Shown here: piece by piece, positions 19,353-51,503 of the stretch | Layout: the number at the start of each line of letters is the position of its first letter | How positions within the stretch are numbered: position 1 is the first letter of the stretch | Source of the DNA: Burkholderia metallica | GTDB lineage: Bacteria; Pseudomonadota; Gammaproteobacteria; Burkholderiales; Burkholderiaceae | NCBI RefSeq assembly: GCF_902832845.1 | Contig: NZ_CADFDB010000008.1 | Location: 1 to 64,000 of the forward strand | Length of the DNA: 64,000 nucleotides | Direction: 5' to 3' | Position numbers and translations under genes: made by a program | The notes under the pieces: model-generated | Seen by the model: the letters and a program-made list of their open reading frames with translations, nothing else | What the model was told of the DNA's origin: nothing | Database searches by the model: none

Positions 19353-20237
19353 TCAGCGCGGGAAGGCCGGCGGCGCGCCGCCGTCGTGCGGGCCGGAGAA
19401 AGGGCGCGCGGCGGCAGCCGATCCCCACGCGGCGAGTTCACGCTTCGTGCGCACGCCGAGCTTCGCGAACGCGCGCTTCACGTACGACTCGGCCGACGCG
19501 ACGCGCACGCCGAGGATTTCGGCCGTCTCCGGCACGGTCTTGCCGGACAGCAGGTGCTTGCAGGTTTCGTATTCGCGCTTCGACAGCTTCACGCGGTCGG
19601 CCGCGATGCGCGCGTCGAACTGCGCGAGCGGATGGACGTCGGGCGTCGGGTGCGCGATGCGCCGCACGGCGGTGGTCGACGCGTGCAGTTCGAGCAGCGG
19701 GAACAGCACGTCGCTGATGCTGCGAAAGCGGTTCATCTCGTCGAGCGTGAACGGCGGCCGGTCGCGGCCGCGCTCCAGCGCGATCGAATGCTGCGAATAG
19801 CGCGTGCCGCGCGCGAGCACGCATTCGTGGCCGATCCGCACGTCGTCGAACAGCCGCTGGCGGAATTCGCCGGGCGGGATCGCCGCGATGTCGCGCACGA
19901 CGAGCATCGTGCCCGTCTTGCCGCGCAGCCCCGCGAACAGCGGGTCGCTGTCGAGAAAGCGCTCGTAGTAGAGCGTCATCACGTCGGAGATTTCGGTGGA
20001 TTCGGTATCGATGCCGCTGCTGCCGATCCATTCGCAGCGATAGCCGGTGGGCATCGAGCCGTCGACGCGCGAGCGTTCGACGTGCGCGACGTCGAGCGGC
20101 ACCACTTCGTTGAGCAGTTGCGTGAGGCGCGGCACGAAGTGCGGCGTGCCGACCGTCTCGATCAGCTCGCCCAGCGCCTTGAACGATACGTTGAAGCGGT
20201 CGTTGTCGCGGTGGAAGGGGTTCACGTTGAGCAGCAT
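19353..20237 (-). CDS. LuxR-family regulator (paralogue 1)
   Basis: A 294-residue regulator with a C-terminal LuxR-type helix-turn-helix: LSKREYETCKHLLSGKTVPETAEILGV, then ASAESYVKRAFAKLGVRTKREL at about residues 225-275. The N-terminal about 200 residues do not show the autoinducer-binding signature I can recognise, so it is better called LuxR-type than quorum-sensing. It is closely similar to the regulator at 24694-25524, with near-identical last helices. It is divergent from the cupin-FAD oxidoreductase operon and upstream of gbuA, so one or both are likely targets. Start chosen at ATG 20237. Confidence 0.85.
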   Translation of the reverse strand: MLLNVNPFHRDNDRFNVSFKALGELIETVGTPHFVPRLTQLLNEVVPLDVAHVERSRVDGSMPTGYRCEWIGSSGIDTESTEISDVMTLYYERFLDSDPLFAGLRGKTGTMLVVRDIAAIPPGEFRQRLFDDVRIGHECVLARGTRYSQHSIALERGRDRPPFTLDEMNRFRSISDVLFPLLELHASTTAVRRIAHPTPDVHPLAQFDARIAADRVKLSKREYETCKHLLSGKTVPETAEILGVRVASAESYVKRAFAKLGVRTKRELAAWGSAAAARPFSGPHDGGAPPAFPR

Positions 20238-24693: not shown

Positions 24694-25524
24694 TCAACAA
24701 TCGACCAGCGCCCAGTCGAACAGCTCGCGGCGCGTGCGCACGCCGAGCTTCGCGAACGCGCGCTTCACGTACGACTCGGCCGTCGACAACTTCACGTCGA
24801 GCTGCTGCGCGGCCTCGGGCACCGAGCGCCCGCACAGCATCAGCCGGCAGATTTCGTGCTCGCGGCGCGACAGTTGCACGTCCTGCCGTTCGAGGCGCGC
24901 GTCGAAGCGCGCCTGCGACGCGGTATTCACCGTGCCCGACGCCACGCGCCGCGCCGCGCAGCTGCGCGCATGCAGCTCGAACATCGGGAACAGCAGGTCG
25001 ACCATCTGCCTGAAATGGAACAGCTCGTCCCTCGTGAACGCGGGCCGCCCGACGGTGCGCGCGAGCCCGAGCGCGTATTGCAGGTGCGCGTTGCCGTGCA
25101 CGAGCATGCATTCCTGCGCGATGCCCGGTTCGTCGAAGATCCGGCGGCGGAATTCGCCCTGCGCGATGCCTTCCACGTCGCGCTGCACGAGCAGCGTGCC
25201 GGGCTTGCCGCGCAGCGGCACGACCAGCGGGTCGGCGAGGCAGTAGTCCTGATAGTAGACATCCATCACGCGCAGCGTATCGGCCGCGAAACGCAGGCTG
25301 CCGCTGCCGAGCCATTCGACGACGAAGCCCGACGTGCTGCCCGCATCCGCGCGCCAGCGTTCGAGGTGCACGGCGTCGGCGTCGATGCTGTCGTTGACGA
25401 ACTCGGTGACCGCGCCGACGAAATCCGGCGTGCCGACCGCGCGCAGCGTCGCGCCGAGCGTGTCTGGGCGCACGCCGATCAGGTAGTGGCCGCGGGCGGC
25501 CGGGTCGGGCTGGAGAAGTCGCAT
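24694..25524 (-). CDS. LuxR-family regulator (paralogue 2)
   Basis: A 276-residue LuxR-type regulator. The C-terminal helix-turn-helix has LSRREHEICRLMLCGRSVPEAAQQL, then TAESYVKRAFAKLGVRTRREL. It matches the regulator at 19353-20237 nearly residue for residue across this region and in ELFHFRQMVDLLFPMFELHA against the equivalent stretch there. It is divergent from the amidohydrolase-binding protein operon, whose promoter carries the shared GGGGGGCATACCG motif. The start at ATG 25524 is chosen by alignment with the paralogue. Confidence 0.85.
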   Translation of the reverse strand: MRLLQPDPAARGHYLIGVRPDTLGATLRAVGTPDFVGAVTEFVNDSIDADAVHLERWRADAGSTSGFVVEWLGSGSLRFAADTLRVMDVYYQDYCLADPLVVPLRGKPGTLLVQRDVEGIAQGEFRRRIFDEPGIAQECMLVHGNAHLQYALGLARTVGRPAFTRDELFHFRQMVDLLFPMFELHARSCAARRVASGTVNTASQARFDARLERQDVQLSRREHEICRLMLCGRSVPEAAQQLDVKLSTAESYVKRAFAKLGVRTRRELFDWALVDC

Positions 25525-41294: not shown

Positions 41295-42308
41295 TCAAGG
41301 CCGGCCGTTTCCGGCCGAATCGAACCGGGTGTGCACGAGCACCTTGCCGACGACGCGGCCGGACTCCAGCGCCTCGTGCGCGTCGACGATGCTTTCCAGC
41401 GGAACCTTCATGCCGATTCTCGGCGAGTACGCGCCTGCCGCCACGCACGCGACGACGTCTCTGGCGGCCTGCTGCTTGACGTCGTCGGGCACGTGGTAGA
41501 TGTAGACGAAGCGCAGGACACAGCCATGCATCATCGCCTTCAGCAACGGAACGGACAGCTCGTCCGTTGCATGGGTCATCGCATAGGAACTGATCACGCC
41601 GCCTTGCGACACGCACGCCAGGTCGATCTCGAGATTGGATTTCAGGTCGACGTCGACGATTCGGTCGATGCCGGCTCCTCCGGTTGCGTCGAGAATGCGC
41701 GTTGCCGCGTCCGCCGCGTGCCGGTCGACGACCAGATCGGCGCCGTTCTGCTGCGCGACGATCGCCTGTTCGGCGTTCGTGACCGATGCCGCCACCCACG
41801 CGCCGGCCCATTTCGCCAGCAGGATGGCCGCGGTGCCGACGACACCCGCGCCACCGTGAACCAGCACACGTCGTCCCGTCAGGCTGCCGTCGGCGAACAG
41901 GCAGCGGTGCGCGGTCAACGCCGGGATGCCGAGGGAGGCGCCCACGTCGAACGACGCGTGAGCCGGCAGATGCACCGCTTGGCGCGACGGGACCACGACG
42001 TATTCCGCAGCCGTGCCCGTTGCTCGGCCGTATTGCGCCTCGTAAACCCAGACGCGCTCGCCGATGCGCTTCGGCGACACGTGGATGCCGACGGCGTCGA
42101 TGACGCCCGCGCCGTCCTGATGCGGAACGATGCGCGGGTATTGCAGCGCGGACGAGAACCCGGTCCGCGCTTTCACGTCGGTCGGATTCAGCCCCGACAC
42201 GTGGATACGGACGCGTACCTCGTCGGGCCCCGGTTCGGGCATCGGCCATTCACCGACGGTCAATACATCCCGGGCTGCACCGTGACGCTCGTAGAAGGCT
42301 GCCTGCAT
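41295..42308 (-). CDS. Zinc-independent quinone oxidoreductase (MDR family)
   Basis: A 337-residue medium-chain dehydrogenase/reductase of the NADPH:quinone reductase type. GroES-like N-domain with GLNPTDVKARTG and PHQDGAGVIDAVG; Rossmann motif VHGGAGVVGTAAILLAKWAGA at about 146-166. Zinc-binding cysteines are absent. ATG 42308 has a GGAG site eight bases upstream and is preferred over 42335. It is divergent from an HxlR regulator gene, a very common pairing in which quinones or aldehydes induce the reductase. Confidence 0.87.
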   Translation of the reverse strand: MQAAFYERHGAARDVLTVGEWPMPEPGPDEVRVRIHVSGLNPTDVKARTGFSSALQYPRIVPHQDGAGVIDAVGIHVSPKRIGERVWVYEAQYGRATGTAAEYVVVPSRQAVHLPAHASFDVGASLGIPALTAHRCLFADGSLTGRRVLVHGGAGVVGTAAILLAKWAGAWVAASVTNAEQAIVAQQNGADLVVDRHAADAATRILDATGGAGIDRIVDVDLKSNLEIDLACVSQGGVISSYAMTHATDELSVPLLKAMMHGCVLRFVYIYHVPDDVKQQAARDVVACVAAGAYSPRIGMKVPLESIVDAHEALESGRVVGKVLVHTRFDSAGNGRP

Positions 42309-42420
42309 CTGTTGCACTCCAATTGTTTTCACCAAGGTGGCAGGCCATGTGGACTGGACTGCCGGACGGGAAAATTCTGGGTCGCAGGGATACGGATCGC
42401 AAGTAAGTACGAGTTTGATA

Positions 42421-42449: not shown

Positions 42450-42785
42450 ATGGAAAAGACGAATACACACGGGTACCGATGCACGGTGGAGGCGACCGTC
42501 GATGTCATCGGCGGAAAGTGGAAGCCGTTGATCATTTACTATCTGCTCAGGGGTACGAAGCGATTCGGCGAGCTGCGCACCGCCATTGGTGGTGTCACGC
42601 AGCGCTCGCTGACGTTGCAGCTTCGGGAGCTCGAGGCGCACGGCATCATTGCCCGGGAAGTATTCGCCGAGGTTCCGCCCCGTGTCGAATATTCGTTGAC
42701 GGAGGTGGGGCGCACGCTCGCGCCCGTGCTCGACGCGATGAAAGACTGGGGCGACGGCTACGTTGCTCACAGTGAAACGCGGTAG
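42450..42785 (+). CDS. HxlR-family transcriptional regulator
   Basis: A 111-residue winged-helix regulator: YRCTVEATVDVIGGKWKPLIIYYLL with the conserved sensor Cys11, GELRTAIGGVTQRSLTLQLREL recognition helix, then VPPRVEYSLTEVGRTLAPVLDAM. Normal HxlR length. The reductase gene starts 141 bases away in the opposite direction. Leader short; the ATG at 42450 follows the AT-rich dyad by 12 bases. Confidence 0.88.
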   Translation: MEKTNTHGYRCTVEATVDVIGGKWKPLIIYYLLRGTKRFGELRTAIGGVTQRSLTLQLRELEAHGIIAREVFAEVPPRVEYSLTEVGRTLAPVLDAMKDWGDGYVAHSETR

Positions 42786-43330
42786 ATCCGATAGGAATCG
42801 TCCCTGAAGCGAAAGCCGGTGGCTCGCCGCGTCGCCGTCGCGACCGAACCGTGCCACGGCAAGCGCCGGATCATCTCGACGGGGCGCTCCTTCAGCCGCC
42901 CGGGGGCGGGCTACGTAAAAACCGTCGGGCCGCTGCGTGGATCGAAGCGGCTGCGTCGTCCTTGCCCGCGAAGCGATCCGCGGCTGCCCGATGTCCATGA
43001 GGGATTCCCCCTGTCACGCGCGAGCCGGCGTCCCGCCGGTGCCGTAGCCACGGCGTCGCGCTTCCCCGCAGGCGCTTCCCGCCCGTCGCCCCCGATTATT
43101 TGCGTTTCGCGAATGGCGCGTTCGCCGGTTGTTCGATACCCGATTCGCGCCCTTGCACCTATCGTGGTGACGTCGGCCGCATGAACGCAATGCATCGCAA
43201 CGCAACACGTCGCACCCGCACCGCGGCCGGCACTTCCCCGCGACTCGCGTCGCACACAAAAGACATCGGACCTAGCTCATGCGCAGGCGCCGCAGCGCGC
43301 GCAGGCGAACCTGTGTCCACGGAGACGGAC
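42786..43330. other. Intergenic region before the MFS gene of the hap locus
   Basis: 545 bases with no convincing gene; open frames here lack any recognisable protein pattern. It holds the hap-type promoter (43098-43165, see the motif feature), followed by an untranslated leader of about 160 bases to the MFS start. Confidence 0.55.
43098..43114 (-). promoter_or_regulatory. 17-bp hap-locus motif, copy 1 (MFS promoter)
   Basis: ATTTGCGTTTCGCGAAT on the plus strand is the exact reverse complement of the element at 45673-45689. It forms an interrupted dyad (TTTGCG-TTT-CGCGAA) of LysR-operator form. Thirty-six bases downstream comes CCTTGCACCTATCGTGG, matching the block at the same distance in the hapC promoter. 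Confidence 0.7.
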
Positions 43331-44584
43331 ATGAAAGCAAACGAGTGGGATACCTCATACGAGTGGAAGGCGGTCACGCTGCTGGCGCTCGGCTTCGGGC
43401 TGGTCGGCCTCGACCGCTGGCTGATCGCGCCACTGTTCCCGTCGATCATGAAGGACCTCAACCTGAACGCGCAGGATGTGGGCAACTGCATCGGCGTGCT
43501 CGGCCTGTCGTGGGGCATCTTCGCGGCGCTGATGGGCGGCATGTCCGACAGGATCGGCCGCAGGAAGGTGCTGATTCCGGCCATCGTCGCGTTCTCGCTG
43601 CTGTCGGGTTTCTCGGGCCTCGCGGGCGGGCTGCTCGGGCTGATGGCGATTCGCGGCCTGATGGGCGTCGCGGAAGGCTCGTTCTGCCCGACCAGCTTCG
43701 CGGCGACGGCCGACGCGTCGCATCCGCGGCGGCGCGGGCTGAACCTCGGCCTGCAGCAAAGCGGCTTCGCGCTGTTCGGGCTCGCGTTGTCGCCGATCAT
43801 CGCGACGCAGTTGCTCGGGTTCGTGTCGTGGCGCTGGGTCTTCGCGCTCGTCGCCGTTCCCGGCCTGATCCTCGGCGCGATCATGTTCTTCGTGATCCGC
43901 GAGCCGAAGGTCGCGAAGGAAACCGCGTCGGAGCATGCGCCGGCGTCTCTCCGCCATGTGCTCGGCAGCCGCAACATCCTGGTCGCGATGGCCGCCCTGT
44001 GCTGCGCGATGACGGGTGTGTTCGTGCTCGGCGCGCTGCTGCCGCTGTACCTGACCGACTACCTCGCGCTCGGCACGCAGAAGATGGGCCTCGTCGTGTC
44101 GGCGATCGGCTTCGGCGGGTTTCTCGGGCAGTTCGGGCTGCCGGGCCTGTCCGACCTGGTCGGCCGCCGCCTCGCGAGCATCGTCGGCTTCGCGGGGACG
44201 GCCGTGATGCTCTACCTCTTCCGCGGCCTCGGCCCGCAGCCGCTCGCGCTGTTCGGCGTGCTGTTCGTCGCGTCGTTCTTCACGCTCGGGCTGGTGTCGC
44301 TGCTGTCCGGCCCGGTGGCGACCGAGGCCGCGCCCGTCGGGCTCGTGTCGACGTCGATCGGCGTGGTGGTCGGCGTCGGCGAGATCTTCGGCGGCGGCAT
44401 CGCGCCGGCGATGGGCGGCTACGTCGCCGCACACTTTGGCATCCAGAACATTCTGTGGCTGCCGATGGTCGCGGTGCTGCTGGGCATCGTGGTCAGCCTG
44501 CTGCTGAAGGAAACCGCGCCGGCCGTGCTGCAGCGCCGCGCGGCCGTGCAGCCGGCGCTGGCGGCCGGCGAGCAGTCGCAGTAA
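43331..44584 (+). CDS. MFS transporter of the hydroquinone locus
   Basis: A 417-residue major-facilitator transporter with 12 helices. The signature loop after helix 2 is MGGMSDRIGRRKVLIP and the equivalent loop in the second half is GLSDLVGRR; GLDRWLIAPLFPSIMKDL is in helix 1. ATG 43331 follows GGAGACGG. Its promoter shares two sequence blocks with that of hapC, so it is co-regulated and likely imports an aromatic precursor of hydroquinone or exports a toxic intermediate. The substrate is not known. Confidence 0.85.
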   Translation: MKANEWDTSYEWKAVTLLALGFGLVGLDRWLIAPLFPSIMKDLNLNAQDVGNCIGVLGLSWGIFAALMGGMSDRIGRRKVLIPAIVAFSLLSGFSGLAGGLLGLMAIRGLMGVAEGSFCPTSFAATADASHPRRRGLNLGLQQSGFALFGLALSPIIATQLLGFVSWRWVFALVAVPGLILGAIMFFVIREPKVAKETASEHAPASLRHVLGSRNILVAMAALCCAMTGVFVLGALLPLYLTDYLALGTQKMGLVVSAIGFGGFLGQFGLPGLSDLVGRRLASIVGFAGTAVMLYLFRGLGPQPLALFGVLFVASFFTLGLVSLLSGPVATEAAPVGLVSTSIGVVVGVGEIFGGGIAPAMGGYVAAHFGIQNILWLPMVAVLLGIVVSLLLKETAPAVLQRRAAVQPALAAGEQSQ

Positions 44585-44730
44585 GGCCCGCGCGGGGCGG
44601 CGGGCGCAGGCGTGGGCCGGCGCCGCCACCGATTGACATCCATTGCGTGACACAGTGACGCCTTTCGCATGACCCAGCCCGTTATCCGCGCGGTTAGACT
44701 GCCGGTTTCGCTGTCGAAAAAGGGCGCGGC

Positions 44731-45660
44731 ATGGACCGGTTTCTGAGCATCGAGGCATTCGTCAGGGTAGCGGAGGCGAGCAGCTTCGCCGAGGCGGCGC
44801 GGCAGCTCGGCGTGACCAGCTCGGTCGTGACGAACCGCATCCAGCAGCTCGAGAAGTTCGTCAACGCGCCGCTGTTTCATCGCAGCACGCGCCACGTGCG
44901 CCTGTCCGAAACGGGCGAGGCGTTCTATCGCGAGTGCGCGGAGGTGGTGGGGCGCGTCAACGAGTTGACGGACCAGATGCGCGAACTTCGCGCGACGCCG
45001 ACCGGGCGGCTGCGCATCCAGATGCTGCCCGGTTTCGCGCTCGATCACTTCGGCGCGCCGCTGATGGCATTCAACCGGCGCTACCCGGGCATTCAGCTCG
45101 ACGTCATCGTCAACGACCGTGTCGTGGACCCCGTCGAAGAAGGGTTCGACATCGCGTTCCAGATCTTCCCGCCGATCTCCGAGTCGCTGATCGAACGGCG
45201 GCTGTTCACGGTCAGGCGCCTCTTTTGCGCGTCGCCCGCCTACCTTGAAGCGCATGGTGCGCCACAACATCCGCGCGACCTGCTGCAGCACACCACCGCG
45301 CTCTATTCGGGCTATCCGTCGCGCAATCGCTGGACGATGACGCGCGGCGACGAGGTCGTCGAAATGGAGCTGCCCGGCATGATCCGCTCGAACTCCGTGC
45401 ACCTGCTGCGCGAGTACGCGCTGTCGGGCGGCGGCGTCGTGTGTCTGCCCACGCTCGTGGCGAGCGACGCGCTCGTCGCCGGCCGGCTGGTGCCGATCCT
45501 GACCGACTTCCAGCTCGCGCCGCTCAGCTTCGCCGCGGTGTATCCCGCAACGCAGCGACAGGCATTGAAGGTGAAGGCGCTGGTCGAGTTCCTCGCGGAA
45601 ACGATCGGCGACGAATCGCCGTGGGACCGGCCGCTTCTGGAGCGCGGCTGGGTGCGTTGA
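44731..45660 (+). CDS. LysR-family regulator of the hap locus
   Basis: A 309-residue LysR-type regulator. The helix-turn-helix includes SSFAEAARQLGVTSSVVTNRIQQLE (about 16-40). The effector domain has LRIQMLPGFALDHFG and ends WDRPLLERGWVR. It sits between the co-regulated MFS gene and hapC, 115 bases before hapC on the same strand, which makes it the likely activator that reads the shared 17-bp dyad, with hydroquinone or a pathway intermediate as inducer. Inferred from location. Confidence 0.88.
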   Translation: MDRFLSIEAFVRVAEASSFAEAARQLGVTSSVVTNRIQQLEKFVNAPLFHRSTRHVRLSETGEAFYRECAEVVGRVNELTDQMRELRATPTGRLRIQMLPGFALDHFGAPLMAFNRRYPGIQLDVIVNDRVVDPVEEGFDIAFQIFPPISESLIERRLFTVRRLFCASPAYLEAHGAPQHPRDLLQHTTALYSGYPSRNRWTMTRGDEVVEMELPGMIRSNSVHLLREYALSGGGVVCLPTLVASDALVAGRLVPILTDFQLAPLSFAAVYPATQRQALKVKALVEFLAETIGDESPWDRPLLERGWVR

Positions 45661-45672
45661 ACCGCGCGGATT

Positions 45673-45689
45673 ATTCGCGAAACGCAAAT
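45673..45689 (+). promoter_or_regulatory. 17-bp hap-locus motif, copy 2 (hapC promoter)
   Basis: ATTCGCGAAACGCAAAT is identical, in inverted orientation, to 43098-43114. A weak -35 (TTGTTG, 45712-45717), a 17-base spacer and TAGAGT (45735-45740) follow. The block CCTTGCCCCTAGAGTGG begins 36 bases after the motif, the same spacing as at the MFS promoter. It looks like an activator-dependent promoter. Confidence 0.7.
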
Positions 45690-45775
45690 GCCGTAGTCGC
45701 CGTCCCGTGCCTTGTTGCGGCGGGGCCTTGCCCCTAGAGTGGAATCCAACAAGCGGTTCAACTCAGGAGACAGAA

Positions 45776-46270
45776 ATGACCGACACGGCATTCCATACCG
45801 TCTTTGGCTCGCTCGCCGGCTACCGGAAGGGCGAGATCGAAATCACCAGCGGCAGCGCCCAGCACTACGCGTTCTCGAATGTGTTCGAGATCGCGTCGAA
45901 GTCGGCCCCTTACGAAAAGGTCGTCGCCGGCAAGAACCTCGAATACGTGATCGAAGTGCTGAGGACCGACGGCCAGTCGCCGTGGTTCGCCTGCGCGCAC
46001 GACGAGTTCGCGATCCAGATGGATGGCGAAGTCCGGATCGATTTCATCAAGCTCGATACGCCGCCGCAGTCGGCGCGCGGCACCGTGCGCGCCGGCGCGG
46101 AGCCGGCCGGCCGGAAGATGGGCTACGTCGTGCTGCGCCAGGGCCATCAGGCGCTGCTGCCGGCCGGCTGCGCGTACCGCTTCACCGCGAGCCAGCCGGG
46201 CGTCGCACTCGTGCAGACCGTCCTGGGCGAGCTGTCCGTCGAGAAGTGGGCCGACATCTGCCTGCACTGA
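45776..46270 (+). CDS. hapC: Hydroquinone 1,2-dioxygenase small subunit
   Basis: A 164-residue soluble protein matching the size and place of HapC, the small subunit of the two-component Fe(II) hydroquinone dioxygenase. With HapD it opens the ring of hydroquinone to 4-hydroxymuconic semialdehyde. The fold is cupin-like at the C-terminus (VLRQGHQALLPAGCAYRFTA). Assignment rests mainly on gene order: hapC-D-E-F-G-H-I is fully conserved here. AGGAGA lies before ATG 45776. It is the first gene of the operon. Confidence 0.85.
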   Translation: MTDTAFHTVFGSLAGYRKGEIEITSGSAQHYAFSNVFEIASKSAPYEKVVAGKNLEYVIEVLRTDGQSPWFACAHDEFAIQMDGEVRIDFIKLDTPPQSARGTVRAGAEPAGRKMGYVVLRQGHQALLPAGCAYRFTASQPGVALVQTVLGELSVEKWADICLH

Positions 46271-46308: not shown

Positions 46309-47328
46309 ATGGCCACCCTCGACACCCTCGACCTTTCCACGGGCTTCGCCGCCGATCTGGTGCAGGCCAGCGAAGCCGATGCCGTTACCGGCTACCGCCG
46401 CTTCCAGCTCGGCGCGTTCGCATTCCAGCGCGACGAATATTTCGTGAAGATCAGCTGGCCCGCGAAAGGCCAGACGCGCACGCACGCGATTCCCGCGGAC
46501 GCGTTCCTGCGCGCGATGATGCGCGACGTCGCGTGGGGCTTCTTCTACGGCTGGGTGAACTTCGACCACGTGTTCGGCACGCGCAATCACTACGGCAAGG
46601 TCGACATGTATGCGGGCACCTTCAACGGCATCCTGAAGGACGCCGGGGTCGACTACACGGAGACCTTCGAAACGCCCACGATCATGGCGACCTTCAAGGC
46701 GATGCTGCACGACTGGACGAACGCGGGCTTCGATCCGTTCGCGGCGCCGGAGGAAACCGGGACGGCGTTCGGACGCAAGCACGGCGACAACGGTTCGGCG
46801 ATCGAGCGCACGCGGATCGCGACGCGCCGCATGCCGGGCCTCGAAGGCGATTCGCCGCTGCGCGACGATCTGCCGGTCAACCGCGCGTTTCTCGACGTCG
46901 CGCAGGACGAACCGGAAGTGCACGTCGAGCCGGGCTTCGAAGGCGAACTGCACGCGTTCAACCTGTTCAAGTACCTGTCGCGCTCGGACGTGACGTGGAA
47001 TCCGTCGGTCACGTCGGTGTGCGGGCGCAGCCTGTTCTGCCCGACCACCGAGGAATTCATCCTGCCGGTGTTCCATGGAAACGACCGCGTCGAATGGTTC
47101 CTGCAACTGTCCGACGAAATCGTGTGGGACATCGGCGACAAGAACACCGGCGCGCCGCGCGCACGCGTGACGATGCGCGCCGGCGACATCTGCGCGATGC
47201 CCGCCGACATCCGGCATCAGGGCTATTCGACGAAGCGCTCGATGCTGCTGGTGTGGGAGAACGCGACGCCCGACCTGCCGCAGCGCTACGAGAGCGGCGA
47301 GCTCGCGCCGTATCCGATCGCGTTCTGA
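46309..47328 (+). CDS. hapD: Hydroquinone 1,2-dioxygenase large subunit
   Basis: A 339-residue protein, the size of the known large subunit (about 38 kDa). It is rich in aromatic and His residues (FYGWVNFDHVFGTRNHYGK; AGDICAMPADIRHQGYSTKR), with a cupin-like C-terminal half that would hold the Fe(II). It is weakly related to other extradiol dioxygenases, as described for this family. The gap to hapC is 38 bases with CAGGAGA before the start. It works as a heterotetramer with HapC in the cytosol. Confidence 0.87.
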   Translation: MATLDTLDLSTGFAADLVQASEADAVTGYRRFQLGAFAFQRDEYFVKISWPAKGQTRTHAIPADAFLRAMMRDVAWGFFYGWVNFDHVFGTRNHYGKVDMYAGTFNGILKDAGVDYTETFETPTIMATFKAMLHDWTNAGFDPFAAPEETGTAFGRKHGDNGSAIERTRIATRRMPGLEGDSPLRDDLPVNRAFLDVAQDEPEVHVEPGFEGELHAFNLFKYLSRSDVTWNPSVTSVCGRSLFCPTTEEFILPVFHGNDRVEWFLQLSDEIVWDIGDKNTGAPRARVTMRAGDICAMPADIRHQGYSTKRSMLLVWENATPDLPQRYESGELAPYPIAF

Positions 47329-47403: not shown

Positions 47404-48870
47404 ATGCAAACCCAACTCTTCATCGACGGACGCTTCGTCGACGCCGTCGACCGCGGCACGATCGACGTGCTGAATCCGCACGACGGCACCGTCATCACGA
47501 AGATCGCGGCCGCCACCGCGGCCGACGTCGACCTGGCCGTCGCAGCCGCGACCCGCGCGTTCCCCGCGTGGTCGGCGCTGCCGGCCGCCGAACGCGGCCG
47601 CCTGCTGCTGCGCCTCGCCGACGCGATTGAGGCCAACGCGGAGGAACTGGCGCAGCTCGAATCGCTGGACACCGGCCACCCGATCCGCGATTCGCGCTCG
47701 CTCGACGTGCCGCGCACGGCTGCGTGCTTCCGTTATTTCGGCGGCATGGCCGACAAGCTGCAAGGGTCGGTGATTCCCGTCGAAACGGGCTTCCTGAACT
47801 ACGTGCAGCGCGCGCCGATCGGTGTCGTCGGCCAGATCGTGCCGTGGAATTTTCCGCTGATGTTCACGAGCTGGAAGATGGGCCCCGCGCTCGCCGCCGG
47901 CAATACCGTGGTGCTGAAGCCTTCGGAAATCACGCCGCTGTCGACGCTGCGCATCGTCGAGCTGATGGCCGAAGTCGGGTTTCCCGCGGGTGTCGTCAAC
48001 ATCGTGCCGGGCTACGGGCACACGGCCGGCCAGCGGCTCGCCGAGCATCCGGGCGTCGGCAAGATCGCGTTCACCGGGTCGACGGCGACGGGCCGGCGGA
48101 TCGTCGAAGCGTCGCAGGGCAACCTGAAGCGCGTGCAGCTCGAACTGGGCGGCAAGGGCGCCAACATCGTGTTCGACGATGCCGACCTCGACGCGGCGAT
48201 CAACGGCGCCGCATGGGCGATCTTCCACAACCAGGGGCAGGCGTGCATCGCCGGCTCGCGTCTCGTGCTGCACGAACGCATCGCGGACGCGTTCCTCGAA
48301 CGCTTCGTCGCGCTCGCATCGTCGATCCGCCTCGGCAACCCGCTCGATCCCGATACCGAGATGGGGCCGCTGACGTCGAAGCAGCACCTCGATCGCGTGC
48401 TGTCGTACGTCGACGTCGCGCGCGAGCAGGGCGGCCGCGTGCTCGCCGGCGGCAGCGCGCCGCAGGACCCGGCGCTCGCCGACGGCTACTACGTGCGCCC
48501 GACGATCATCGAGGCCAAGCGCGCGACGGACCGCATTGCGCAGGAGGAAGTGTTCGGCCCGTTCGTCACCGTGCTGCGCTTCGGCAGCGATGAAGAAGCG
48601 CTCGCGATTGCCAACGCGACCGAGTACGGGCTCGGCAGCGGCCTCTGGACGCGGGATCTGTCCCGCGCCCACAAGACGGCGTCGCGGATCGACGCGGGCA
48701 TGTGCTGGATCAACTGCTACAAGCGCGTCAATCCGGGCAGCCCGTTCGGCGGCGTGGGCAAGTCGGGCTACGGCCGGGAAATGGGCTTCGAGGCGATGCA
48801 CGACTACACCGAGGCGCGATCGGTGTGGGTCAACGTCGACGGCAACGTGCCGCCGCACTTCAAGCGTTGA
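47404..48870 (+). CDS. hapE: 4-hydroxymuconic semialdehyde dehydrogenase
   Basis: A 488-residue aldehyde dehydrogenase. The general base is Glu247 (LELGGKGAN), the catalytic nucleophile Cys281 (FHNQGQACIAGSR), with cofactor motifs PWNFP (147-151) and FTGSTATGRR. In the hap pathway it oxidises 4-hydroxymuconic semialdehyde to maleylacetate using NAD+. The position between hapD and the maleylacetate reductase gene fixes the assignment better than the sequence alone. The next start is eight bases after its stop. Confidence 0.9.
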   Translation: MQTQLFIDGRFVDAVDRGTIDVLNPHDGTVITKIAAATAADVDLAVAAATRAFPAWSALPAAERGRLLLRLADAIEANAEELAQLESLDTGHPIRDSRSLDVPRTAACFRYFGGMADKLQGSVIPVETGFLNYVQRAPIGVVGQIVPWNFPLMFTSWKMGPALAAGNTVVLKPSEITPLSTLRIVELMAEVGFPAGVVNIVPGYGHTAGQRLAEHPGVGKIAFTGSTATGRRIVEASQGNLKRVQLELGGKGANIVFDDADLDAAINGAAWAIFHNQGQACIAGSRLVLHERIADAFLERFVALASSIRLGNPLDPDTEMGPLTSKQHLDRVLSYVDVAREQGGRVLAGGSAPQDPALADGYYVRPTIIEAKRATDRIAQEEVFGPFVTVLRFGSDEEALAIANATEYGLGSGLWTRDLSRAHKTASRIDAGMCWINCYKRVNPGSPFGGVGKSGYGREMGFEAMHDYTEARSVWVNVDGNVPPHFKR

Positions 48871-48878
48871 GGATTGCC

Positions 48879-49946
48879 ATGGATCGCTTCGTCTATCAGG
48901 GCACGCCGTCGCGCGTGGTATTCGAATGGGGGGCGCTCGCCCGGCTGCCGGACGAGCTGTCGACGCTCGGCGCGCGCCGCGCGCTGATCCTGTCTACGCC
49001 CGAGCAGCGGCCGCTCGCCGAGCGCGTGGCGGCGATCCTGGGCGAGCGTGCGGCCGGCATCTGCGCGCAGGCGGTCATGCACGTGCCGGTCGAGGTCGCG
49101 CGCGCCGCTCGCGAGATGGCCGGCGAACGCGACGCCGATTGCTGCGTCGCGATCGGCGGCGGATCGACGATCGGGTTGGGCAAGGCCATTGCGCTCGAAT
49201 CGGTGCTGCCGATCCTGGCCGTGCCGACGACGTATGCCGGCTCGGAGATGACGCCGATCTTCGGGCTCACGGAAGGCCGGCTGAAGCGCACCGGGCGAGA
49301 TGCGCGCGTGCTGCCGCGTACGGTGCTCTACGACCCGTCGCTGACGGTGTCGCTGCCGCCGGACATTTCGGCGGCTTCGGGCATCAATGCGATCGCGCAT
49401 GCGGTCGAGGCGCTCTATGCGCAGGACGCGAACCCGGTGATCAGCCTGATGGCGGAAGAATCGATCCGCGCGCTCGGCGAAGCGCTGCCGGTGATCGTGC
49501 GCGATCCGGCGCACCGCGCGATGCGCAGCCGCGCGTTGTACGGCGCATGGCTCGCGGGAACCTGCCTCGGCGCGGTGGGGATGGCGCTGCACCACAAGCT
49601 GTGCCATACGCTCGGCGGCACATTCAACCTGCCGCACGCGCAGACGCATGCGGCGATGCTGCCGCATACCGCGCACTACAACCACGCTGCCGCGCCCGAT
49701 GCGCTGCGCCGCGTGGCGCGCGCGCTGGGTGGCAGCGACGCGGCCGAAGCCGGCCCGCTGCTGTTCGCGCTGAACGCGCGGCTCGGCATTGCGCCAGCGC
49801 TCGCCGACCTCGGGATGCCGCAGGCGGGCCTCGACGAAGCGGCCGATCTTGCGTGCCGCAACCCGTACGCGAATCCGCGGCCGGTCGAACGCGCGGCGAT
49901 TCGCGCATTGCTGCAGCACGCATGGGAAGGGCGCGCGCCGCAATGA
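48879..49946 (+). CDS. hapF: Maleylacetate reductase
   Basis: A 355-residue iron-containing alcohol-dehydrogenase family enzyme. GGGST (cofactor loop), PTTYAGSEMTPIFG and the His-rich HHKLCHTLGGTFNLPHAQTHA carry the metal-ligand region typical of maleylacetate reductases (TftE/MacA/PnpE). It reduces maleylacetate to 3-oxoadipate with NAD(P)H, linking to the beta-ketoadipate pathway. ATG 48879 lies right after hapE, so the two are translationally close. A final Gln ends the protein (GRAPQ). Confidence 0.9.
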   Translation: MDRFVYQGTPSRVVFEWGALARLPDELSTLGARRALILSTPEQRPLAERVAAILGERAAGICAQAVMHVPVEVARAAREMAGERDADCCVAIGGGSTIGLGKAIALESVLPILAVPTTYAGSEMTPIFGLTEGRLKRTGRDARVLPRTVLYDPSLTVSLPPDISAASGINAIAHAVEALYAQDANPVISLMAEESIRALGEALPVIVRDPAHRAMRSRALYGAWLAGTCLGAVGMALHHKLCHTLGGTFNLPHAQTHAAMLPHTAHYNHAAAPDALRRVARALGGSDAAEAGPLLFALNARLGIAPALADLGMPQAGLDEAADLACRNPYANPRPVERAAIRALLQHAWEGRAPQ

Positions 49947-49974
49947 ACGCCACGATGCGTCAAAGGAGACAGAC

Positions 49975-50847
49975 ATGCACCACGACCCCCAAGACGGCGA
50001 CGCCGCGCTGACCGAGCAGGTCGTCGCCAGCTTCGACGGTACGCCGAACCCGCGACTGCGTGCGTTGATGCAGAGCCTCGTGCGGCATCTGCATGCGTTC
50101 GTCAGCGAAACGGCGCTGACCGAGGCGGAGTGGATGGCCGCGATCCGCTTCCTGACCGACACGGGGAAGATGTGCGACGGCGCGGTGCGACAGGAATTCA
50201 TTCTGCTGTCGGACACGCTCGGCGTCTCGATGCTGGTCGATGCGATCAACCATCGTTTCGCGACCGGCGCGACGGAGACGACCGTGTTCGGTCCGTTCTA
50301 CATCGAGGGGATGCCCGAGCGCGCGTATGGCGAGAACATGGCGCTCACGCCGGGCGTGCCGGCGATCGTGCGTGGCCGGGTGCTGACCACCGACGGCGAG
50401 CCGGTGGCGAACGCCGTGCTCGACGTGTGGCAGACGGCGGACAACGGCATGTATTCCGGGCAGGACACCGCGCAGCCGCACGGCAACCTGCGCGGCCGCT
50501 ACCGGACCGACGCCGAGGGCCGCTACGCGATCGCGACGATACTGCCCGTCAGCTATCCGATTCCGACCGACGGCCCGGTCGGGAAGATGCTCGACGCCAC
50601 GGGGCGACATCCGTGGCGGCCCGCGCATCTGCACTTCATGATCGATGCGCCGGGATGCCGGACGCTCGTCACGCACCTGTTCGACGAAGACGATCCATAT
50701 CTGACGTCGGATGCGGTGTTCGGCGTGAAGCCGTCGCTGATGGTTGCGTATCGCCGGCGCGATGCGGACGATGCGCTCGCCCGTCAGTTCGGCCTGAGCG
50801 GCCCGTATCGCGAAGTGACGTACGACTTCGTTCTCGACCGGAGCTGA
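49975..50847 (+). CDS. hapG: Intradiol ring-cleavage dioxygenase (hydroxyquinol 1,2-dioxygenase-like)
   Basis: A 290-residue intradiol dioxygenase. The Fe(III) ligands are in place: Tyr160 (DNGMYSGQD), Tyr194 (PVSYPIPTDGPVG), His218 and His220 (HPWRPAHLHF). The N-terminal dimer helix domain (TPNPRLRALMQSLVRHLHAF) is the hydroxyquinol/catechol 1,2-dioxygenase type. It would open hydroxyquinol (1,2,4-trihydroxybenzene) to maleylacetate, giving the cluster a second entry besides hydroquinone. AAAGGAGA precedes ATG 49975. Confidence 0.9.
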   Translation: MHHDPQDGDAALTEQVVASFDGTPNPRLRALMQSLVRHLHAFVSETALTEAEWMAAIRFLTDTGKMCDGAVRQEFILLSDTLGVSMLVDAINHRFATGATETTVFGPFYIEGMPERAYGENMALTPGVPAIVRGRVLTTDGEPVANAVLDVWQTADNGMYSGQDTAQPHGNLRGRYRTDAEGRYAIATILPVSYPIPTDGPVGKMLDATGRHPWRPAHLHFMIDAPGCRTLVTHLFDEDDPYLTSDAVFGVKPSLMVAYRRRDADDALARQFGLSGPYREVTYDFVLDRS

Positions 50848-50852
50848 CCGTC

Positions 50853-51164
50853 ATGGCGCGATTTTTTGCGGTGTTTGCGACGGACCAGCCGGGCATGCGC
50901 GACGTGCGCGATCGCATGCGGCCGATTCACCGGACGTACCTGCGCTCGGCCGATCAGCACGGCGTGGTGGTGCGGCTCGGCGGCCCGACGCTCGACCCGC
51001 ACGGCGACGCGATGAACGGCACGCTGCTCGTCGTGGAGGCGGACGACATTCACGCGGTGATGCGGTTCGTCGGGAACGATCCGTATGTGAAGGAAGGGCT
51101 GTTCTCGCGCGTGGAAGTGCGGCCGTGGGACTGGAGCCTCGGCAACCCCGAGCAGCGGGTGTGA
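50853..51164 (+). CDS. hapH: YciI-family protein
   Basis: A 103-residue YciI-like ferredoxin-fold protein: RFFAVFATDQPGMRDVRDRMRPIHRTYL, then the conserved DPYVKEGLFSRVEVRPWDW. It lies five bases after hapG and matches the position of hapH in the known order. YciI proteins include a muconolactone-isomerase-like, His/Asp-dependent dehalogenase; the role in hydroquinone catabolism is not established. Confidence 0.88.
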   Translation: MARFFAVFATDQPGMRDVRDRMRPIHRTYLRSADQHGVVVRLGGPTLDPHGDAMNGTLLVVEADDIHAVMRFVGNDPYVKEGLFSRVEVRPWDWSLGNPEQRV

Positions 51165-51167
51165 GGC

Positions 51168-51503
51168 ATGGAAGCGCGACAACTCTGCCGCTTCTCCGAA
51201 GTGCCCGACGGCGGCGCGCGGGTCGTCGACGACGCATGCATCGGGCGCCCGGTGATCGTCGTCAGGCGCGGCGAGCAGGTATGGGCGTATGTGAATCGTT
51301 GCCCGCACTTCTCGGTGCCGCTCGATTTCGTACCGGGCAGCGTTTCCTGTTACCGGTCGCAGGTGCTGATGTGCGCGCATCATAGCGCGCTGTTCCGGTT
51401 CGATGACGGCGTGTGTATCGATGGGCCTTGCTCGGGGGCGGCGCTGGAGGCGGTGGCCGTCGAGGTGGATGCCGCTGCGTGGATCGTCTGTCGGGGTGCC
51501 TGA
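51168..51503 (+). CDS. hapI: Rieske-type [2Fe-2S] ferredoxin
   Basis: A 111-residue Rieske ferredoxin. The cluster ligands are Cys45-x-His47 (NRCPHFSVPL) and Cys69-x-x-His72 (MCAHHSALF), with all four present. It follows hapH by three bases and is the last gene of the operon, as hapI in the known cluster. It may keep the dioxygenase iron reduced or serve an unseen oxygenase. The products of hapA and hapB, which feed 4-hydroxyacetophenone in other hosts, are not encoded here. Confidence 0.9.
   Translation: MEARQLCRFSEVPDGGARVVDDACIGRPVIVVRRGEQVWAYVNRCPHFSVPLDFVPGSVSCYRSQVLMCAHHSALFRFDDGVCIDGPCSGAALEAVAVEVDAAAWIVCRGA

Follow-up and report, generated by a model that had tools for sequence, protein, structure and literature searches.

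Based on our comparative analysis of a 64,000-nucleotide stretch of Burkholderia metallica DNA (contig NZ_CADFDB010000008.1, positions 1 to 64,000; hereafter the window), we propose that one LysR-type regulator controls two promoters of its hydroquinone (hap) locus. These promoters, one before a gene for a major facilitator superfamily (MFS) transporter and the other before hapC, the head of a hydroquinone dioxygenase operon, carry the same 17-bp dyad in opposite orientations. Each dyad is, in our reading, the recognition binding site (RBS) of the PnpM-type LysR regulator encoded between them at 44731-45660, and we give this reading a probability of about 0.87. The preliminary description of this DNA had attributed both promoters to the local LysR protein, and that attribution is now supported by conservation, by co-occurrence and by a footprinted homologue in the Pseudomonas strain WBC-3, with activation as the presumed sense of the control. 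LysR control of both promoters appears to be the best-supported reading because the dyads are conserved at both promoters and their exact form occurs solely there in the genome, because the dyad tracks the LysR orthologue, and because the homologous operator has been footprinted with LysR regulators in WBC-3. The protein itself has the helix-turn-helix and substrate-binding domains of a LysR-type regulator (Pfam) and, judged by its sequence, is akin to the PnpM-type regulators of hydroquinone operons in Pseudomonas.

Architecture of the two promoters

The 17-mer ATTCGCGAAACGCAAAT lies before hapC, and its exact reverse complement, reading ATTTGCGTTTCGCGAAT on the forward strand, lies before the MFS gene, just as first reported (Table 1); no further match to ATTCGCGAAACGCAAAT was found in the window with up to 3 mismatches allowed. 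In LysR-type promoters generally, the RBS has the form T-N11-A and lies near -65 from the start site. The form shared here, ATTNGCGNNNCGCNAAT, that is, ATT-N-GCG-NNN-CGC-N-AAT, contains this T-N11-A, and an imperfect dyad of this kind is present at both promoters. Its centre would fall at -66 in both when counted from the putative -10 boxes, and at -72 by alignment to the pnpC start mapped in WBC-3.

Directly after the dyads stand two 13-base blocks, GCCGTAGTCGCCG at hapC and GGCGCGTTCGCCG at the MFS gene, which are identical at 9 of 13 positions (shared form GNCGNNNTCGCCG) and had been overlooked in the preliminary description; they fit an activation binding site. The block that it did describe farther downstream (CCTTGCACCTATCGTGG at the MFS promoter and CCTTGCCCCTAGAGTGG at hapC, shared form CCTTGCNCCTANNGTGG) starts 36 bases after the dyad in both promoters, so that its presence and spacing stand; by our comparison, it would be mainly a -10 region rather than another site for the regulator, and the likely -10 element is the conserved stretch that lies about 45 bases beyond the dyad. 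Dyad, GNCGNNNTCGCCG and CCTTGCNCCTANNGTGG are thus the three blocks common to both promoters from the dyad onward. No good -35 hexamer was seen on inspection of the MFS promoter, and a sigma-70 scan of 42700-46000 found no consensus promoter. Between the lysR stop codon and the hapC dyad lie 12 bases. A search for an autoregulatory dyad in front of lysR found none, the best sites having 3-5 mismatches in 35 genus loci and 5 mismatches in the 146-bp gap of the window.

The general LysR scheme of an RBS and an activation site is matched here in dyad type, predicted position, the adjoining activation-like block and the lack of a consensus -35/-10 pair; we see no difference in principle, the sequence and the targets being particular to the window. 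Following that scheme, a LysR tetramer would sit on the dyad and, with inducer, would engage the activation site and recruit RNA polymerase to promoters that have no consensus -35/-10 pair. The predicted outcome would be that the MFS transporter and the hapC operon are switched on, with a positive loop if lysR is also transcribed from the MFS promoter.

Occurrence in the genome and conservation

The 17-mer is not frequent in the genome: the whole 7.55 Mb hold 2 exact copies of ATTCGCGAAACGCAAAT, both at this locus, and the sole copy with one mismatch is on contig 5, within a reading frame that resembles hutI by eye. The loose form ATTNGCGNNNCGCNAAT, with at most one mismatch, has 26 genome sites (2 perfect, 24 with one mismatch), against 4 for the backward pattern.

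Within the genus, a LysR orthologue of at least 94% identity is present in 36 of 65 genomes. The 17-mer motif, at one mismatch or fewer, occurs in all 36 of these and in 1 of the 29 genomes without the orthologue. Over the 36 genus promoters, the hapC dyad averages 1.95 bits and the block after it 1.80, against 0.88 for the 56 bases upstream; the corresponding values at the MFS promoter are 1.89, 1.92 and 0.68. The distance from dyad to -10 is constant in 36/36 hapC promoters and in 35/36 MFS promoters, the remaining one being 1 base longer. In the 35 fetched genus loci, the hapC dyad has no mismatch to RTTNGCGNNNCGCNAAY, and the best site upstream of the MFS gene has at most one.

Both dyads are found again in related genera, and the one at hapC also in Pseudomonas, which bears out the expected conservation upstream of hapC in related species. 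Among 24 loci of the family outside the genus that have MFS, LysR and hapC genes (L109-L132), the best site has at most two mismatches before the MFS gene and before hapC in every case. All 22 of the 24 hapC promoters that match the -10 pattern keep the genus distance; at the MFS promoters, 17 of 24 are one base longer, 2 equal and 5 unmatched. The Pseudomonas dyads lie at -102 to -108 from the hapC start codon. None of the 19 Pseudomonas promoters matched the -10 distance pattern, yet the Pseudomonas consensus has TA..GT at that offset. A RTTNGCGNNNCGCNAAY-like dyad before a hydroquinone dioxygenase operon, as at a PnpM-type operator, is what we find in the window, where the operon is recognised by its PnpCD-type large subunit.

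The free-centre pattern ATTYGCGNNNCGCRAAT has matches in 105 of 398 family genomes; of the two matches away from this locus that were inspected, the one in L173 falls within a reading frame and was rejected as an operator, and the other is that in G059, taken up below. Eight loci of another genus, g24 (L157-L164), have a LysR orthologue of 69-70% identity followed by a diverged related site such as GTTCGGCAATCGCAAAA, then ACTCGC and a -10-like block; no hap match was found within their fetched 3.5-kb flanks, and in L157 the gene after lysR resembles an alpha/beta hydrolase by eye. In L150, with a LysR of 81% and no hapC/hapD match, a dyad with one mismatch stands before a hapE-like aldehyde dehydrogenase gene.

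Association of the dyad with the LysR gene

Genome contigs were scanned for hapD relatives, and the best 80 of 331 loci were grouped by their adjacent LysR; close relatives weigh most in this selection, and several of the loci come from the same genomes as the genus and family sets. A dyad, taken as a site with two mismatches or fewer, was present in 44 of 47 loci whose neighbouring LysR reaches at least 80% identity, in 12 of 14 where its identity is 65-80%, and in 8 of 19 with no LysR in the fetched stretch; mononucleotide-shuffled regions, used as the control, reach this level in 4.6%. Seven of the 8 genomes with a dyad and no adjacent LysR hold a LysR of the PnpM-type family (61-88%) elsewhere. 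Such a LysR is held by 1 genome for the 11 loci without dyad and without LysR, and the other hap locus of that genome has the LysR beside it. In a regulator tree (midpoint root, two long outside branches flagged, the PnpM sequence itself left out), 33 of 37 rows fall together, Pseudomonas regulators encoded beside hap operons among them, and apart from a clade of about 51% identity, with support 97/91.

Comparison with known Pseudomonas systems

The closest known system is the pnpCDEFG operator of WBC-3, with the same pathway and the same operon head. According to excerpts of the WBC-3 paper (PMC5603801), PnpM and PnpR protect a region with GTT-CGCGTTTCGCA-AAC at -80 to -64 of pnpC in footprints, inducer stretches the PnpM protection over -61 to -51, and PnpM activates pnpC; the promoter responds about 349-fold to para-nitrophenol (PNP) and about 36-fold to hydroquinone, that is, about ten times more weakly. 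As far as these excerpts go, the footprinted 17-mer is identical letter for letter to a site on the plasmid of Pseudomonas sp. JS425; this site precedes the hapC homologue there, spaced from the start codon as the WBC-3 start site would require, and the conserved block after the dyad aligns with the inducer-extended footprint. Compared with the MFS dyad of the window, the site in the excerpts differs at 4 of 17 positions (1, 4, 14 and 17), with outer bases GTT..AAC in WBC-3 and ATT..AAT in the window. In the same excerpts, two regulators act at the site, whereas one was found in the window genome, and the second target of PnpM is pnpA1M rather than an MFS transporter.

In P. putida DLL-E4, for which we likewise draw on excerpts (PMC4871426), PnpR is 85% identical to PnpM, is encoded adjoining the hydroquinone genes as the LysR gene is here, and is reported to be involved in the regulation of PNP degradation. 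Loss of pnpR lowers the induction of pnpA from 519-fold to 7-fold; the effect on dioxygenase induction is small, and the excerpts name no MFS target or binding site for PnpR. A search of open-licence literature returned no paper on this operator or its MFS target in Burkholderia.

Weighing the alternatives

Several observations count against our proposal. The genome holds 24 further loose-dyad sites with one mismatch, the hutI-like copy on contig 5 among them, and the free-centre pattern matches 8 of 26 LysR-less genus genomes in the family draw besides 35 of 35 with LysR. The match in G059 (L104), rejected as an operator, has neither a LysR gene nor a -10 block at the expected distance. The eighth genome with a dyad and no adjacent LysR, G407, yielded no LysR at all; two of these 8 loci, L243 and L245 (G407), end at contig ends close upstream, where LysR adjacency is not readable. 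Conversely, 3 mismatches are found in 3 hap loci despite a close LysR and 4 in 2 Cupriavidus loci with a 73-74% LysR; the sites of Cupriavidus and g24 loci have diverged, and none is seen after lysR in L165-L167. The dyad-less Achromobacter loci are a soft control because hapC seems, on our impression, to lie within a longer operon there, and since LysR, MFS and hap genes are mostly linked, the co-occurrence is partly the inheritance of one cluster. Excerpts of the two Pseudomonas papers add that PnpR and PnpM, only 44% alike, share one WBC-3 site (PMC5603801), and that in DLL-E4 the loss of pnpR changes the induction of the dioxygenase genes little, from 25.7- to 21.6-fold and from 35.4- to 30.7-fold (PMC4871426). 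Sole control by one LysR is thus not assured, the DLL-E4 data counting against it.

These two systems also feed the strongest rival, namely that the dyads do serve as operators, but chiefly for a different regulator, such as a second LysR encoded elsewhere, alone or with the local one. The shared WBC-3 site and the DLL-E4 genes that remain inducible without the adjacent pnpR, both as given in the excerpts, would suit it, as would the similar dyads that the LysR clade of about 51% has at its own hapC promoters; however, no second LysR was found in this genome at E <=1e-60 (35 of 185 candidates scored), and the PnpM-type-family LysR found elsewhere in 7 of the 8 genomes whose dyad lacks an adjacent one speaks for the local family, so that we hold this rival unlikely. 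We regard it as very improbable that one promoter alone works and that the second dyad is left over from a promoter duplication: a duplication would account for the three blocks, which both promoters share in one order and at one spacing, but each promoter is conserved above its own upstream flank, and the MFS dyad is kept in 17 of 17 loci without adjacent hapCD. Some LysR proteins act as repressors, and a regulator that represses at the dyad is conceivable on that ground; a presumed dyad centre near -66 or -72, the lack of a consensus sigma-70 promoter, and the activation of pnpC by the homologous PnpM in the WBC-3 excerpts make it just as remote. A chance repeat in two GC-rich promoters can hardly be entertained. 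The inverted pair by itself is weak evidence because such pairs are common in the window, which holds 10 exact inverted 17-mer pairs (2 being self-overlapping palindromes) against a mean of 2.75 and a maximum of 10 in 40 first-order Markov simulations. What weighs strongly is the constant spacing, the placement in promoters and the conservation: dyads recur at both promoters across genera at a near-constant distance to the -10 box, and the Pseudomonas dyads keep to their narrow range upstream of hapC. Control of both promoters by the PnpM-type LysR protein remains our preferred reading.

A second LysR clade and residue 30

The transporter and the hap genes are not always together. In 17 loci with LysR and MFS genes and no adjacent hapCD (L133-L149), the MFS dyad is kept with at most two mismatches to an RTT..AAY core, one of them having 3 mismatches by the ATT..AAT core. 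In all 17 genomes hapD is found at another place, less than 6 kb from a LysR gene of 51-52%. The hapC promoters at these places (L290-L306) have a perfect RTTYG-N7-CRAAY dyad in 16 of 17 cases and one mismatch in the other; their common form, GTTCGGCAAACGCGAAC, has 2 mismatches to the stricter core, and the two further hapD copies of these genomes, L307 and L308, each depart from the looser form at one position. A statement that hap loci with the LysR of about 51% lack the dyad turned out to be wrong, the search core having demanded ATT..AAT. With the RTT..AAY core, L106 has a perfect dyad, GTTCGCGTTTCGCGAAC, and L105 one mismatch; because both carry such dyads, a clean dyad contrast between the LysR clades was dropped. 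From these sequences, it appears that in the 17 genomes hapCD would lie near a Lys-type paralogue with its own GTTCG..CGAAC-like dyad, and that the first regulator would keep the transporter alone.

This name refers to residue 30 of the regulator, which we take to lie in the recognition helix. With L267-L269 left out, the residue is Ser in 35/35 fetched genus loci and in 23 of the 24 family loci with MFS and hapC (1 unread), Arg in 17/17 Pseudomonas copies read (11/11 adjacent, 6/6 distal), and Lys in 22/22 copies of the 51% clade. The outer bases of the site are G and C in 19/19 Pseudomonas sites; a final T closes 36/36 hapC and 36/36 MFS sites of the genus, and 23/24 hapC and 24/24 MFS sites of the family. 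It is possible, if rather doubtful, that an aromatic transporter and the hydroquinone operon are linked through one regulator clade and that operator specificity is largely set by residue 30, Ser going with a final T and Arg or Lys with GTT..AAC. There are counter-cases: the hapC site of L132 ends in C although the regulator has Ser; the MFS-only group has 13 Ser and 4 Gly with a final T in 17/17; and the g24 and Cupriavidus regulators (Asn, Gly) pair with other ends. The link between residue and outer base may also reflect one evolutionary event and is a lead, not a result. If the split were true, regulator replacement with insulated operators would here have happened in nature, and the inducer would more likely be a compound that the transporter handles than hydroquinone itself.

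The hapC promoters next to LysR genes of the 51% clade (L105, L106, L281, L282 and L288-L306) share a stretch around TANTTTCCCTRG, upstream of their GTTCG..CGAAC dyad by about 20 bp; in L281, L282, L288 and L289 it forms an inverted repeat CYAGG..CCTRG. This stretch is possibly another regulator site.

The locus and its features

All genes from the MFS gene through LysR, hapC and hapD to the end of the operon at 51503 lie on the forward strand. Annotation gives this gene order for Burkholderia multivorans too, and the operon order for Pseudomonas sp. JS425 as well. No Pfam or NCBIfam model matched hapC, whose name comes from position and homology.

Table 1. Coordinates of the predicted operators, promoter elements and genes of the hap locus (positions in the window).
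Feature	Position	Strand	Remarks
17-bp dyad of the hapC promoter, ATTCGCGAAACGCAAAT	45673..45689	+	Predicted RBS
17-bp dyad of the MFS promoter, ATTTGCGTTTCGCGAAT read on +	43098..43114	-	Exact reverse complement of ATTCGCGAAACGCAAAT; predicted RBS
GATT preceding the hapC dyad	45669..45672	+	Conserved alongside the dyad, 2.00 bits in 36 genus promoters
Block adjoining the hapC dyad, GCCGTAGTCGCCG	45690..45702	+	Predicted activation binding site; mean of 1.80 bits over positions 1-14 past the dyad
Block adjoining the MFS dyad, GGCGCGTTCGCCG	43115..43127	+	Predicted activation binding site; mean of 1.92 bits over positions 1-14 past the dyad
Second block of the MFS promoter, CCTTGCACCTATCGTGG	43151..43167	+	Likely -10 hexamer TATCGT at 43160-43165
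Second block of the hapC promoter, CCTTGCCCCTAGAGTGG	45726..45742	+	Likely -10 hexamer TAGAGT at 45735-45740
Likely -35 hexamer TTGTTG of the hapC promoter	45712..45717	+	17 bp before TAGAGT; the Pseudomonas consensus has TTGTT at this offset
MFS transporter gene	43331..44584	+	Pfam MFS_1 5.6e-48; same annotation in the homologous B. multivorans locus
LysR-type regulator gene	44731..45660	+	Predicted binder of both dyads; Pfam HTH_1 1.6e-18, LysR_substrate 1.9e-38
hapC, hydroquinone dioxygenase small subunit	45776..46270	+	Place before hapD; 58-95% identity to genes so placed elsewhere
hapD, hydroquinone 1,2-dioxygenase large subunit, PnpCD-type	46309..47328	+	Pfam PnpCD_PnpD_N (PF18191) 3.7e-86
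Operon remainder: aldehyde dehydrogenase, maleylacetate reductase, intradiol dioxygenase, YciI-like and Rieske proteins	47404..51503	+	Domain matches, gene order

Upstream of the MFS promoter lies an HxlR-type regulator gene (42450-42785), divergent from a gene at 41295-42335 on the reverse strand that resembles a quinone oxidoreductase by eye; NCBIfam RrpB/RrpA models match the HxlR-type gene below their cut-off. Elsewhere in the window, an exact direct repeat of about 50 bp (19446-19495 and 24733-24782, 5.3 kb apart) is unrelated to the operator pair.

Significance

A PnpM-type operator that closely resembles the switch of the window was already known from its mapping in a Pseudomonas; what seems new, as far as sequences tell, is the MFS transporter promoter as a second predicted target of the regulator. 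Our comparison extends the Pseudomonas-mapped operator to a large group of Burkholderia-type bacteria and provides a promoter layout that can be searched for, in which GATT, the dyad and the activation block are followed by a -10 element about 45 bases after the dyad. The division of the hap genes and the transporter between two LysR clades is also a test case supplied by nature for the divergence of LysR operators.

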